A DNA stretch of 64,000 bases from an uncultured Roseobacter sp. (GTDB lineage Bacteria > Pseudomonadota > Alphaproteobacteria > Rhodobacterales > Rhodobacteraceae), in the NCBI RefSeq assembly GCF_947495275.1, contig NZ_CANLYL010000001.1, positions 62,001-126,000 on the forward strand, in the 5' to 3' direction. Numbering within the stretch: position 1 is the stretch's first letter; every line of letters starts with the position of its first letter. This document shows positions 1 to 19,629 of the stretch, one piece after another. The notes below the pieces were generated by a model. That model saw only the letters and a list, made by a program, of their open reading frames with translations. It was not told where the DNA came from and made no database searches. The position numbers and the translations under genes are program-made.

Positions 1-331
1 ACACAGTGACTTTGTTTTTCTTCATCAGATGACCGATGCCACCCGAGAGCTGCCCTGCGACTTTCCGCGACCGTTTTACAACCGCGTCGAGATCGTAGCC
101 GACGTTGTCGGCCTTCAGCCCAAACTCCTTGGCGCGGTGCATCAGGTGGAAGACCTCGGAAGACCGCAGCATTGCCTTGGTCGGAATACATCCCCAGTTG
201 AGGCAAATGCCCCCCAGATGTTCCCGCTCGACAATGGCAACAGACATCCCCAATTGCGCACCACGGATGGCCGCAACGTAGCCCCCCGGGCCCGCACCAA
301 TCACAATAAGATCGAAGGATTTTGCAGCCAT
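1..331 (-). CDS. lpdA: Dihydrolipoyl dehydrogenase (E3), N-terminal part, runs off window
   Basis: Only the first 110 residues are inside the window; the gene continues past base 1. The E3 flavoprotein reoxidises the dihydrolipoyl arm of 2-oxoacid dehydrogenase complexes using NAD+. Visible are the FAD dinucleotide fold (Gly12, Gly14, Gly17) and the redox-active disulfide in GGICLNWGCIPTK (Cys43 and Cys48). The ATG at 331 has GAGGA about 8 nt upstream. A palindrome at 361-384 lies just upstream and is shared with pdhA at 15.9 kb, which supports an assignment to the pyruvate complex rather than only 2-oxoglutarate or branched-chain complexes. That specificity is inference; the enzyme family is clear. 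Confidence 0.95.
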   Translation of the reverse strand, partial: MAAKSFDLIVIGAGPGGYVAAIRGAQLGMSVAIVEREHLGGICLNWGCIPTKAMLRSSEVFHLMHRAKEFGLKADNVGYDLDAVVKRSRKVAGQLSGGIGHLMKKNKVTV

Positions 332-360: not shown

Positions 361-384
361 ATATAGTTTACCGTTAAACTATAT
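361..384. promoter_or_regulatory. Palindromic operator candidate upstream of lpdA
   Basis: Perfect 10-bp arms (ATATAGTTTA and TAAACTATAT) flank a 4-bp spacer, 29 bp before the lpdA start. Read in the lpdA direction the 20-bp core is ATAGTTTA-ACGG-TAAACTAT. The pdhA upstream region (15858-15877) has ATAGTTTA-ACGC-TAAACTAT in the same gene-relative orientation. The length and symmetry fit a dimeric repressor or activator site. The regulator is unknown. Confidence 0.75.
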
Positions 385-454
385 TGAACCCAGCGGCAAC
401 ATGCTGCACGGCGCGACATTTGCGCGCCGTGGTCTCGAAACGTCAGCGTTTCTT

Positions 455-10565: not shown

Positions 10566-10852
10566 ATGTCGGATCAATATCTTCCGACCCTGCGCCGCCG
10601 TTTGCATGAAGATATGCGGACCAAGGGGCTGCAACCGAAGACACCGAGAATGTATCTGCGGGTGATGCGCGATTTCAGGCGGTTCCTGGGGCATTCGCTG
10701 GATGCGAGCTACCGGCGTTCCAGCTCGATATGAAGGAACGGGGCGTTGGTGCGCTGACCTTCAGCAACCGGTTGACGGTGTTGGGCTTCTTTTATGCCAC
10801 GACGTACCCACGCCCGGAAATGAAGCGACACATGCGCTATCAGCGTGCCTGA
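10566..10852 (+). pseudogene. Tyrosine recombinase (IS91-associated integrase) N-terminal remnant
   Basis: The first frame starts at an ATG with GGGAGG 5 nt upstream and reads LRRRLHEDMRTKGLQPKTP, then YLRVMRDFRRFLGHSLDAS, the SAM-like core-binding domain of phage-type integrases. At about 10704-10706 the similarity jumps to the +2 frame and continues as ELPAFQLDMKERGVGALTFS, then FFYATTYPRPEMKRHMRYQR, ending at a stop at 10852. A few residues appear deleted at the junction and the whole catalytic domain (R-H-R-Y) is missing. It is inactive. Confidence 0.8.
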
Positions 10853-10879
10853 GGCGCGTCTTCGAGACAACGGGCTCGG

Positions 10880-11274
10880 CGATGATGGGCCATCCCCAGG
10901 TACACGTCATCGCGCCGAGAGGGGTACCGCCCGATGGGGCATGTTGGATCGCCTGCCGCGCGGGGTTCTTCCTGCCGGTGAGGGTGCTGTCATGGTTGTT
11001 CAGGCGCTTGGTCCTTGAAGGGTGGCTTCGATTGCACAAGACAGGCAAGCCGCGCTTCTTCAGCAATCTGCCGGGGTTTGCAGACCCGGATACCTTTGCC
11101 GCCGATCTCGCACCCCTGCGCAAAACCGACTGGGTCTTCTATACATTTGCACTGCCTGCCGTCACACAATCGCTGGCCTTGCACATCGATCACCGCAGCC
11201 GCAGCCCCCAAGCACCGAAGGCCGCCCGGCTTCCCCCTTGCCAGATTTGTCGCCGCTCCAGCTCACGCTCATAA
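10880..11274 (+). pseudogene. IS91-family transposase fragment
   Basis: The frame reads HPQVHVIAPRGVPPDGACWI, then CRAGFFLPVRVLSWLFRRLV, then KPRFFSNLPGFADPDTFAAD, then LAPLRKTDWVFY. This matches the central region of IS91 transposases, where HPHVHxIVPGGG is a hallmark; here the Gly-rich part is altered. No N-terminal zinc-binding region is found upstream, and after about residue W-V-F-Y the frame degenerates and ends at 11274 without the catalytic Tyr region. A dead remnant. Confidence 0.78.
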
Positions 11275-14026: not shown

Positions 14027-14154
14027 CTGGCACTCCTTCACAAATTGGTTGCCGATTACCTAAGCCGTGACGGGCAGAATGCCAAGCAAGTCCATTGACG
14101 TCTGAGCAGATAAGCGCAACACACGGGGCCAGTGGGAGCTGAAAGGAAAAGGTG

Positions 14155-15342
14155 ATGGGCTGGAAAACACTCGATGACATGGATTTGGCCGGAAAACGTG
14201 TACTTGTGCGTGTCGACATCAATGTTCCCGTCGAAGATGGCCGCGTCACAGATACCACGCGGATCGATCGCATCGTGCCAACGGTCAAGGACATTCTGAA
14301 GGGCGGCGGCATGCCCATCCTGCTGGCCCATTTCGGGCGTCCAAAGGGGCAATATGTCCCCGAGATGTCGTTGCGCGTGACCCTGCCCGCCCTGGAGGCA
14401 GCACTAGGTCAGGCCGTGATCTTTGTCGAACGCCCCGATCCGGACATGCTGGCGGCACTGCCCGCTGGTAGCGTCGTGCTGGTCGAAAACACCCGCTTTG
14501 CCGCAGGCGAGGAAGCCAATGATCCCGGCATGGCGCGGTTTCTCGCCAGCCTTGGCGACATCTTCTGCAACGACGCATTTTCCGCCGCCCACCGGGCCCA
14601 TGCCTCCACAACCGGGGTAGCGGAGCTCTTGCCTTCCTGCGCGGGGCGCTTAATGCAGGCGGAGCTCTCCGCGCTGGAAGCAGCACTGTCACATCCAACA
14701 CGCCCCGTAGGTGCCGTTGTGGGCGGTGCCAAGGTTTCAACCAAGATCGCCCTGCTGGAAAACCTCGTCGGGCGGCTGGACCTTCTCGTCATCGGTGGCG
14801 GAATGGCAAATACGTTTCTCACCGCCCAGGGCGCGCAGCTTGGCGCATCGCTTCGGGAACCGGATTTTATCGACACGGCCAAAACAATCATGGCGCGTGC
14901 CCAAAAAGAAGGATGCCGCATCCTGCTGCCTGTTGATGGGTTGGTGGCGCGCGAATTCAAATCCGGTGCAGACCATGAAGTCATTGCTCTTGGACCAGAG
15001 ACGATCCTCGCAGACGATCAGATGGTGCTGGATGCCGGGCCGGAGAGCGCGCAGGCCGTTGCCGATGCATTCAATGATCTAAAAACGCTGATCTGGAACG
15101 GCCCCCTGGGTGCTTTTGAAATCAGCCCCTTTGATCGGGCCACAAATGTTGCCGCCGCCGCGGCCGCAGGTCTCTCCGAAGCGGGAAGTCTGATTTCTGT
15201 TGCCGGAGGCGGCGACACCGTCGCGGCTCTCAATCAGGCCGGCGCGTCGGATGATTTCACCTATATCTCGACGGCAGGGGGTGCCTTTCTGGAATGGATG
15301 GAAGGCAAGGAACTTCCCGGGGTCGCGGCTCTCGAACATTGA
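14155..15342 (+). CDS. pgk: Phosphoglycerate kinase
   Basis: A 395-residue glycolytic kinase that interconverts 1,3-bisphosphoglycerate + ADP and 3-phosphoglycerate + ATP. Signature [11 protein letters not shown], the AHFGRPKG loop and [17 protein letters not shown] are intact, as is the Gly-rich nucleotide loop near the C-terminus ([13 protein letters not shown]). Length is normal. The ATG at 14155 follows an AAAGGA-type site; a GTG one codon earlier is also possible. It stands alone on the plus strand, with the ftsB-like gene 127 bp downstream. Confidence 0.97.
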
Positions 15343-15769: not shown

Positions 15770-15857
15770 TCCAAAACCCTGAAACCAACCCATCTGGCTT
15801 GCCGATTGACCGCGCGTCATATTGCCTCTCGCATTGCCCTAACGAATCCGATAAAGA

Positions 15858-15877
15858 ATAGTTTAACGCTAAACTAT
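15858..15877. promoter_or_regulatory. Palindromic operator candidate upstream of pdhA
   Basis: Perfect 8-bp arms ATAGTTTA and TAAACTAT are separated by ACGC, 38 bp before pdhA. In gene-relative orientation this differs by a single base from the 20-bp core of the site upstream of lpdA (361-384). It lies inside the most AT-rich part of the intergenic region, where a core promoter is expected. Confidence 0.75.
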
Positions 15878-16923: not shown

Positions 16924-18309
16924 ATGGCAACTGAAATTCTCATGCCCGCGCTGAGCCCGACCATGGAAGAAGGCACATTGGCCAAATGGCTGGTCAAGGA
17001 GGGCGACACGGTCGCTTCCGGCGACATCATGGCCGAGATTGAAACCGACAAAGCCACGATGGAATTCGAGGCCGTTGACGAAGGCACCATCGGCAAGATT
17101 CTGATCGCCGAAGGCACCGAGGGCGTCAAGGTCAACACCGCTATTGCGATCCTGCTGGAAGATGGTGAAAGCGTCGACGATATCGATACCTCAGCCGCGA
17201 CGCCGGAGGCAGCGCCCGCTGCCGACGCGGGCAACGAGGCGGCCCCTGCGGCCACCGAGGCGCCCGCCTCCGCCCCCCCGGCAGCGCCTCAAACCGATAC
17301 CTCACCGGATTGGCCCGAAGGCACTGCTCTCAAGGAACAGACCGTGCGCGAAGCATTGCGCGATGGCATGGCAGAGGAAATGCGCCGCGATGATAGCGTT
17401 TTTCTGATGGGCGAAGAAGTCGCCGAATATCAAGGCGCCTACAAGATTTCTCAGGGCATGCTGGATGAATTCGGCGCCAAACGCGTGATCGACACGCCGA
17501 TCACCGAACACGGCTTTGCGGGGATCGCAACCGGAGCGGCCTTCGGTGGCCTGCGGCCCATCGTGGAATTCATGACCTTCAATTTCGCCATGCAGGCCAT
17601 TGACCAGATCATCAATTCCGCAGCCAAAACCCTCTACATGTCCGGCGGCCAGATGGGCGCGCCCATGGTCTTTCGCGGACCCAACGGGGCTGCTGCCCGC
17701 GTCGGCGCGCAACACTCACAGGACTACGCCGCCTGGTACATGCAAGTGCCGGGTCTCAAGGTTGCGATGCCCTACTCCGCCTCCGATTACAAAGGCCTGA
17801 TGAAAACCGCAATCCGCGACCCCAATCCGGTGATTTTCCTCGAAAACGAAATTCTTTACGGCCGCAGTTTCGATGTCCCTGAGCTCGATGACTATACGGT
17901 GCCGTTTGGGAAGGCACGTATCTGGCGCGAAGGATCTGACGTGTCCATCGTCAGCTTCGGCATTGGCATGAGCTACGCACTGGCAGCAGCCGATCGACTG
18001 GCCGAAGAGGGCATATCTGCCGAGGTTATCGACCTACGCACCCTGCGCCCCATGGACACAGGCAGCATCATCAAATCGGTGATGAAGACCAACCGCTGTG
18101 TCACGGTTGAGGAAGGCTGGCCACAAGGTTCGGTCGGCAACTACATCTCGTCGGTGATCATGCAGGAGGCGTTCGACTACCTCGACGCGCCGGTGATCAA
18201 CTGTACCGGCAAGGATGTACCGATGCCCTATGCAGCAAATCTCGAGAAGCTGGCGTTGGTCACGACGGACGAGGTTGTCGCCGCCGTTAAACAAGTCACC
18301 TACAAATAA
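16924..18309 (+). CDS. pdhB: Pyruvate dehydrogenase E1 component, beta subunit with N-terminal lipoyl domain
   Basis: A 461-residue protein made of a lipoyl domain (residues 1-80; lipoylated Lys43 in [10 protein letters not shown]), an Ala/Pro-rich flexible linker (about 95-128) and an E1-beta transketolase-type domain (about 137-461). The extra lipoyl domain is a known feature of PDH E1-beta in many alphaproteobacteria. Its lipoyl-coding DNA is about 91% identical to that of pdhC downstream by my count. RBS is GGAGG overlapping the pdhA end. Confidence 0.97.
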
Positions 18310-18321
18310 GGAGCGCGCAAG

Positions 18322-19629
18322 ATGCCTACAGAAATTCTCATGCCCGCCCTGAGCCCGACCATGGAAGAAGGCACATTGGCCAAATGGCACGTCAAGGAGG
18401 GCGACACGGTGTCGTCCGGCGACATCATGGCCGAGATCGAAACCGACAAGGCCACGATGGAATTCGAGGCGGTTGACGAAGGCACCATCGGCAAGATTCT
18501 GATCGCGGAAGGCACCGAAGGTGTTAAGGTTAACACCGCTATTGCGATCCTGCTCGAAGATGGTGAGAGCGCGGATGATATCGATACATCCGCGCCTGCG
18601 CCGGAGGCCGCACCGGCGGCTGACGCGGCCGCTGAGGCGGCTCCGGCAGAGAGCCCCGAAAAGGCCGCTCCTGCCCCCGCTGCTACAAAGGGTGCTGACG
18701 GCAACCGCATCTTTGCCTCGCCTCTCGCCCGTCGCATCGCGGCAGACAAGGGCGTCGATCTTGCAACGATCAAAGGTTCAGGCCCGCATGGCCGCATCGT
18801 CAAGGCAGATGTGGAAGGGCTCAGCACCTCCGCCGCACCTCAAGCGGCGACCGCGGCTCCCGCCGCAGCATCTGCCCCTGCCAAGGCTCCCGCCGCTGGC
18901 CCAGCCGCCGACGCCGTCATGGCCATGTACGAAGGTCGCGAATATGAGGAAATCAGCCTCAACGGCATGCGCAAAACCATCGCCGCGCGCCTGACGGAAG
19001 CCAAACAGTCGATCCCGCACTTCTACCTGCGCCGGGACATCGAGCTGGACGCCCTACTGAAATTCAGGGGCGAGTTGAACAAGCAGCTCGAATCCCGAGG
19101 CGTGAAGCTGTCGGTCAATGATTTCATCATCAAGGCCTGCGCGCTGGCGCTGCAATCCGTCCCGGATGCCAATGCCGTTTGGGCCGGTGACCGCATGCTG
19201 AAATTGAAACCCTCTGACGTAGCCGTCGCCGTCGCCATCGAGGGCGGGCTCTTCACGCCAGTTCTGAAAGACGCAGAGATGAAGTCACTCTCGGCCCTTT
19301 CAGCAGAGATGAAAGACCTCGCAAGCCGCGCTCGCGACCGAAAACTGGCACCGCACGAATACCAGGGCGGCAGCTTCGCAATCTCAAATCTGGGAATGTT
19401 CGGCATCGACAATTTCGACGCGGTGATCAACCCGCCGCATGGTGCGATCCTCGCAGTGGGTGCCGGTGTGAAGAAGCCGGTTGTTGGCAAGGATGGTGAA
19501 TTGGGTATTGCAACGGTTATGTCTGCCACGCTCTCGGTAGATCACCGCGTTATTGATGGCGCTCTGGGCGCGCAACTCCTTCAGGCAATCAAGGACAACC
19601 TTGAAAATCCAATGACGATGCTCGCCTGA
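18322..19629 (+). CDS. pdhC: Dihydrolipoamide acetyltransferase (E2 of PDH)
   Basis: A 435-residue E2 core enzyme. Order: lipoyl domain (1-80, Lys43), Ala/Pro-rich linker, E3/E1-binding domain (about 131-166, [18 protein letters not shown]), second linker, and catalytic domain (about 210-435) with the active-site motif [10 protein letters not shown]. It transfers the acetyl group to CoA. AAGGAG precedes the start. It closes the operon and is followed by a strong terminator. Confidence 0.97.

Follow-up and report, generated by a model that had tools for sequence, protein, structure and literature searches.

A candidate palindromic operator shared by the separate pyruvate dehydrogenase, dihydrolipoyl dehydrogenase and malic enzyme loci of Rhodobacteraceae

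How can the genes of a single enzyme complex be controlled in concert when they do not form one operon? The question is raised by a 64,000-nucleotide stretch of DNA from an uncultured Roseobacter sp. (henceforth the window, by which the whole stretch analysed is meant), in which lpdA, encoding the E3 component, and the pdhABC operon, encoding E1 and E2 of pyruvate dehydrogenase (PDH), lie apart from each other and are preceded by almost the same palindrome. The features concerned are listed below.

361..384, minus strand: 24-bp palindrome upstream of lpdA, ATATAGTTTA-ACGG-TAAACTATAT in gene orientation, core at 363-382
15858..15877, plus strand: putative operator upstream of the pdhABC operon, ATAGTTTA-ACGC-TAAACTAT
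1..331, minus strand: lpdA, dihydrolipoyl dehydrogenase (E3), 464 aa, extending past the window (L007:5938-7332); TIGR01350, 566 bits
15916..16920, plus strand: pdhA, pyruvate dehydrogenase E1 alpha; TIGR03182, 513.5 bits
16924..18309, plus strand: pdhB, E1 beta with an N-terminal lipoyl domain (Biotin_lipoyl, PF00364); PRK11892, 835.9 bits
18322..19629, plus strand: pdhC, E2 dihydrolipoamide acetyltransferase; TIGR01349, 536.3 bits

The HMM family models bear out the identities that the first-pass annotation had proposed for lpdA and pdhABC from the letters and open reading frames. The pattern ATAGTTTA-N4-TAAACTAT occurs exactly at 363-382 and 15858-15877; 29 bases separate the palindrome edge at 361 from the lpdA start (331, minus strand), 38 bases lie between the second site and the pdhA start (15916), and in gene orientation the cores ATAGTTTA-ACGG-TAAACTAT (lpdA) and ATAGTTTA-ACGC-TAAACTAT (pdhA) differ in a single spacer base, all of which had been read correctly at first pass. 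With up to 3 mismatches allowed the window holds 2 copies, compared with a mean of 0.02 in 100 shuffled versions, none of which (0/100) reached 2; a chance origin of the pair is excluded. The segment between the two loci also carries a Y2-type transposase-like gene (PF04986, window 10702-11274), and the lipoyl-domain starts of pdhB (16924-17200) and pdhC (18322-18600) appear by eye near-identical in DNA, as if by gene conversion.

The earlier statement that there is no third copy holds for the window at up to 3 mismatches and fails for the genome. At up to 1 mismatch the genome contains three places, against 0 for the reversed pattern, and at up to 3 mismatches five, against 6 for the reversed pattern. 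The five are the lpdA and pdhA sites, a one-mismatch site before maeB, and two three-mismatch sites (L004 and L005), alongside which none of the eight compared proteins was found. The maeB site, which reads GTAGTTTA-ATGC-TAAACTAT in the direction of the gene, is placed 22 bases 5' of a gene for an NADP-type malic enzyme with a phosphotransacetylase-like part (PRK12861, 1007 bits, under the curated cut-off of 1178). Its inclusion makes metabolic sense, because the conversions of malate to pyruvate and of pyruvate to acetyl-CoA are consecutive steps.

Conservation of the palindrome was followed from the genus outwards. Each of the 19 genomes sampled from the genus, the present one among them, carries 2-3 sites at up to 1 mismatch and 0 matches to the reversed pattern. 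In the order sample (121 genomes, all belonging to one family) a site at this threshold is found in 89, compared with 4 for the reversed pattern, and 31 of the remaining 32 genomes have a weaker copy upstream of pdhA: 18 with 2 mismatches, 10 with 3, and one each with 4, 5 and 6, the five- and six-mismatch forms being GTTCAACGTTGAAC. One genome (G125) has no copy in its pdhA upstream stretch. In the class sample the exact pattern is present in 4/4 genomes of the family and in 2 of the 285 others, 3 of which are matched by the reversed pattern. The same boundary appears in the pdhA upstream test, which used loci from 30 of the 149 genomes with a pdhA match: the three family members have the site with 0, 0 and 1 mismatches, and it is absent from all 27 upstream regions from outside the family, or from 24 on the safe count, since three of the loci (L194, L200 and L215) are truncated and the gene position may be misplaced in them. 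The best score outside the family (L195, 4 mismatches) was equalled by 5 of 100 shuffles. Comparison with relatives, one of the checks named in the first-pass annotation, therefore revealed a site conserved both in the genus (19/19) and in the family.

The targets of the site were assessed in 117 fetched loci, i.e. the matches listed from the genus and order scans, taken one per place, together with six from the class scan; there are close relatives among the genomes, so not all of these sites are independent. Among these listed matches, 112 precede pdhA (62), lpdA (31) or maeB (19). The 113th, in genome G019, has the palindrome (L058:1501-1520) 40 bases before aceE (from 1561), a gene for the homodimeric pyruvate dehydrogenase E1, of which the first 486 codons match TIGR00759 with 782 bits (the whole-protein cut-off is 860) before the locus ends. 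The same genome also retains pdhA with a one-mismatch site (L189). Two further fetched sites, L056 and L057, lie outside the family. The other two belong to the family but have no plausible target. One (L052:1501-1520) sits between convergent genes in the neighbourhood of a UspA-like ORF; the other (L244:1301-1320) is some 175 bases 5' of a MaoC-like ORF, a greater distance than at any of the accepted sites (both ORFs were named by eye). When the species collection was scanned with ATAGTTTAACGNTAAACTAT, the picture was similar, with 109 of the 116 matches listed preceding pdhA (87), maeB (14) or lpdA (8); the seven others comprise three at a locus edge (L295, L331, L340), one Balneolaceae and one Prevotella record, and L369 and L372. 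As most sites were gathered by the N8 pattern itself, this purity of targets speaks for the strong sites. The genome-wide search recommended at first pass, which might have returned many unrelated copies, yielded few strong ones, nearly all at the same genes.

A shared operator for the separate PDH genes is thus strongly supported at the level of sequence, because the site is conserved throughout the genus and in the family, and the mirror-image sequence very probably lets a single control protein switch these genes together. The predicted regulon is a small one, leading from malate through pyruvate to acetyl-CoA, with pdhABC, lpdA and maeB at separate loci. The first-pass annotation had envisaged a single regulator for the whole PDH complex; its shared operator stands, but its scope was too narrow, since the site also regularly precedes the malic enzyme gene and, in one genome, aceE. 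A single regulator for all these sites is our inference.

Is the palindrome read as DNA or as RNA? The 112 sites before pdhA, lpdA and maeB were aligned with 30 of the weaker pdhA upstream copies, and the frame GTT-N8-AAC proved invariant in all 142. A stem-loop at the 5' end of the mRNA, with an 8-bp stem and a 4-base loop, could be folded in both leaders of the window; counting G-U, the pairs are kept in 112 to 142 of the 142 sites, depending on the pair, and the spacer, read in the direction of the gene, lacks symmetry (A at position 9 in 107/112 sites, T at position 12 in 27/112), as an RNA element would allow. We nevertheless regard the stem-loop as very improbable. Pair 7-14 is C-A in 15 of the 142 sites and C-G in only 2, though it is G-U in 22 and standard in 126 in all; pair 8-13 is A-C in 6, and the folding scores (z of -0.49 and -1.13) are no better than those of shuffled sequences. 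Moreover, 60 of the 85 varied sites are altered in one half only, in place of the compensatory, pair-keeping changes expected of a stem, and such mostly independent variation of the halves fits DNA recognition better. A search of window positions 1-20500 against Rfam gave no match at the gathering score. The asymmetry of the spacer, whose centre is CG in 66 of the 112 N8 sites, finds no explanation in a symmetric dimer; an overlapping transcription start is one option.

The sites lie close to the genes, at median distances of 36 (pdhA), 29 (lpdA) and 24 (maeB) bases from the start codon and within a range of 14 to 131 bases among the accepted sites. At such a distance the site must overlap or follow the core promoter, which suggests that the bound protein represses. 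A scan for sigma-70 consensus promoters found none at either site in the window, so the case for repression rests on the spacing to the start codon; mapping of -10 and -35 elements revealed conserved blocks, but with inconsistent promoter spacing, and the exact start site is left unclaimed. Among the sequences 5' of the palindrome that are conserved as well are ATTGCC-N-CTCGCATT before pdhA (window 15821-15857) and the words GCGC and TGTTGC before lpdA (window 385-445). Or perhaps the palindrome could itself be a shared element of the core promoter and no regulator's operator? It is placed where a promoter must be, and both of its halves contain TAnnnT, which resembles a -10 hexamer. Its distance from the start codon varies, however, over the range given above, and a promoter element would be expected at many genes, not at the three places found in the present genome at up to 1 mismatch; to our knowledge, a two-fold symmetric word would also be unusual as a promoter signature. 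We give this alternative hardly any credence.

The explanation that we favour, and consider likely as a whole, is that a single DNA-binding regulator, acting as a dimer, recognises the palindrome as its operator. This protein would control pdhABC (E1/E2), lpdA (E3) and maeB (malic enzyme), as well as aceE in the one genome with the homodimeric enzyme, and would thereby set the amount of malate and pyruvate turned into acetyl-CoA. When bound it would probably repress, and it would probably be released by a metabolite of the pyruvate/acetyl-CoA node.

Which protein could be the binder? The genes around the sites offer no candidate: a Pfam scan of thirteen ORFs, twelve from the interval between lpdA and pdhA and one from past pdhC (a set to which 14152-15342, for instance, did not belong) detected no transcription factor, and among the 45 largest clusters of neighbours from the 116 listed loci and from L006 and L007 no recurrent regulator-like gene was seen by eye. 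The PdhR protein of gammaproteobacteria (GntR/FadR family) offers the analogy of one regulator for the pyruvate dehydrogenase genes. Its operator is TGGT-N3-ACCA. This sequence is absent from the present sites as read, just as the first-pass annotation had maintained, and a PdhR-type binder is ruled out by the operator sequence. The genetic arrangement differs too, since lpdA is reported to belong there to an aceEF-lpdA operon, whereas here E3 is encoded elsewhere and malic enzyme is added. In Rhodobacter capsulatus, RedB is reported to exert an indirect repression on maeB2, pdhB and lpdA1 alike (PMC9603517). This gene set resembles ours, in that the RedB/FnrL mutants (CRP/FNR family) described there alter pdhB, lpdA1 and maeB2 (RedB) or pdhA and maeB2 (FnrL); but the effects are reported there as indirect and the RedB motif as a 12-bp non-palindrome, so neither protein explains the palindrome directly.

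The known regulator closest to the present sites bears the names RSP_1663, GapR and CceR, which we take, in part by assumption, to denote one protein. CceR is described as a LacI-family regulator of central carbon metabolism and a reported sensor of 6-phosphogluconate. In the regulatory network of Rhodobacter sphaeroides (Imam et al. 2015, PMC4344238) lpd, pdhAB and malic enzyme are assigned to the LacI-family protein RSP_1663, with the motif [AGT]GTT-N6-8-AAC[ACT]; the predicted targets include the malic enzyme RSP_1593, RSP_2968 and RSP_4047-4050, and spacer length is said to divide the targets into two clusters. RSP_2968 is named elsewhere as a possible E3 gene (PMC12632250). The present sites correspond to the N8 form of this motif, which GTT and AAC satisfy at N8 in 142/142 cases, although the outer bases vary slightly beyond it. 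It could therefore be that CceR itself binds the palindrome in a second, wider mode, with GTT-N8-AAC instead of GTT-N6-AAC, a reading to which we attach a somewhat less than even chance.

Several observations agree with this proposal. GapR, identified with RSP_1663, occurs in each of the 13 Rhodobacteraceae that Ravcheev et al. 2014 (PMC4052901) covered, and has been described as divergent to the GAPDH gene. We take L064 as the CceR orthologue of the present genome, because its LacI group is the only one that recurs in almost every genome compared, and because the member in G029 is divergent to the GAPDH gene; a match to L064 is found in 79 of 80 family genomes, which makes CceR as widespread as the sites. 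Two genomes, G132 and G029, carry the site together with a single LacI-domain match (PF00356, E 1e-3) that falls in the CceR group, with 77 and 57% identity, though these come from 15 genomes picked mostly for small size, in which a degenerate LacI domain could escape. A second LacI protein is accordingly not needed as the binder. The GAPDH-gene site of the present genome has one half, AGTTTAAC, identical to an N8 half, and the N8 sites have a median score of 8.2 under the CceR matrix, which exceeds the 99% level of background windows (-4.2) but not the 99.9% level (17.0).

The two kinds of site differ nonetheless when they are compared base by base. In 30 loci of the GAPDH gene, a listed type of GapR target (gapB or gapA), a CceR-type site at up to 3 mismatches precedes the gene in 28, of which the weaker ones may be due to chance; the symmetrised consensus, TGTTAGCGCTAACA, is one base off in register per half relative to the N8 sites. 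C occupies centre+6 in 27 of the 28 right halves before GAPDH genes and in 0/142 N8 sites, and centre+7 in 0/28 versus 142/142, although 112 of these 142 were found by a pattern that favours +7. As judged from these alignments, the CceR-type GAPDH-gene sites and the N8 sites are different classes that do not overlap at the tested base. LacI-type operators usually keep a central CG. In the N8 sites it is kept in only the 66 of 112 mentioned above, which also speaks against CceR. The GapR regulon lists neither pdh, lpd nor maeB in the portion of Ravcheev et al. 2014 available (PMC4052901), and in Paracoccus denitrificans a cceR deletion leads to less MaeB, not more (PMC11323563), which, if CceR acts there through the palindrome, would mean activation, opposite to the repression geometry of the present sites. 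In genome G036 (rated 100% complete) the pdhA site is perfect, yet CceR has no match there at E 1e-60; since CceR-type sites are retained, one of them before an apparent scrK (fructokinase), the absence of cceR may be no more than an assembly gap. In many genomes the pattern GTTNNCGCTAACA did not outperform its reversed control, and its counts were set aside.

Two further groups of sites were seen in the present genome. The GAPDH-gene site CCAAAGTTTAACGCTAACACTTGG (L087:1496-1519, about position 46072 of contig C1) combines a half resembling the pdhA operator with one resembling CceR sites, and four GTTANCGNTAAC sites (C16:102592-106673; L084-L086) lie in an apparent sugar-acid cluster near the LacI gene L065, where they perhaps mark a local gluconate-type regulon.

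We conclude that the operator is real and specific. Its protein would be either CceR in an unusual mode or a regulator other than CceR, and we slightly prefer the second option, rating its chance as marginally better than even. In its fullest form, to which we would give even odds, this reading holds that a non-LacI regulator found throughout the Rhodobacteraceae serves only to govern how malate and pyruvate become acetyl-CoA. It would act at three regular targets and, where the enzyme is the differently built AceE, would accompany the function there; the published network would have conflated it with CceR because both operators contain the core TTA-NCGN-TAA.

A search of the open-licence literature in PubMed Central found no paper on the present operator, the nearest being Imam et al. 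2015 (PMC4344238). As the sites are the N8 form of the motif given there, the gene set and the motif had already been predicted in that paper for R. sphaeroides. What goes beyond print, as found, is malic enzyme as a regular member of the regulon, an operator defined to the base, and a class of sites separable from that of CceR.

Rhodobacteraceae rank among the major consumers of dissolved organic matter in seawater, and whether carbon goes into biomass or is burnt depends in part on the step from pyruvate to acetyl-CoA. The compact palindromic operator may be of use for laboratory work in Rhodobacteraceae, and it puts the published CceR assignment to the test. With a clean operator and three regular targets across the family, the regulator of the step from pyruvate to acetyl-CoA should be findable.
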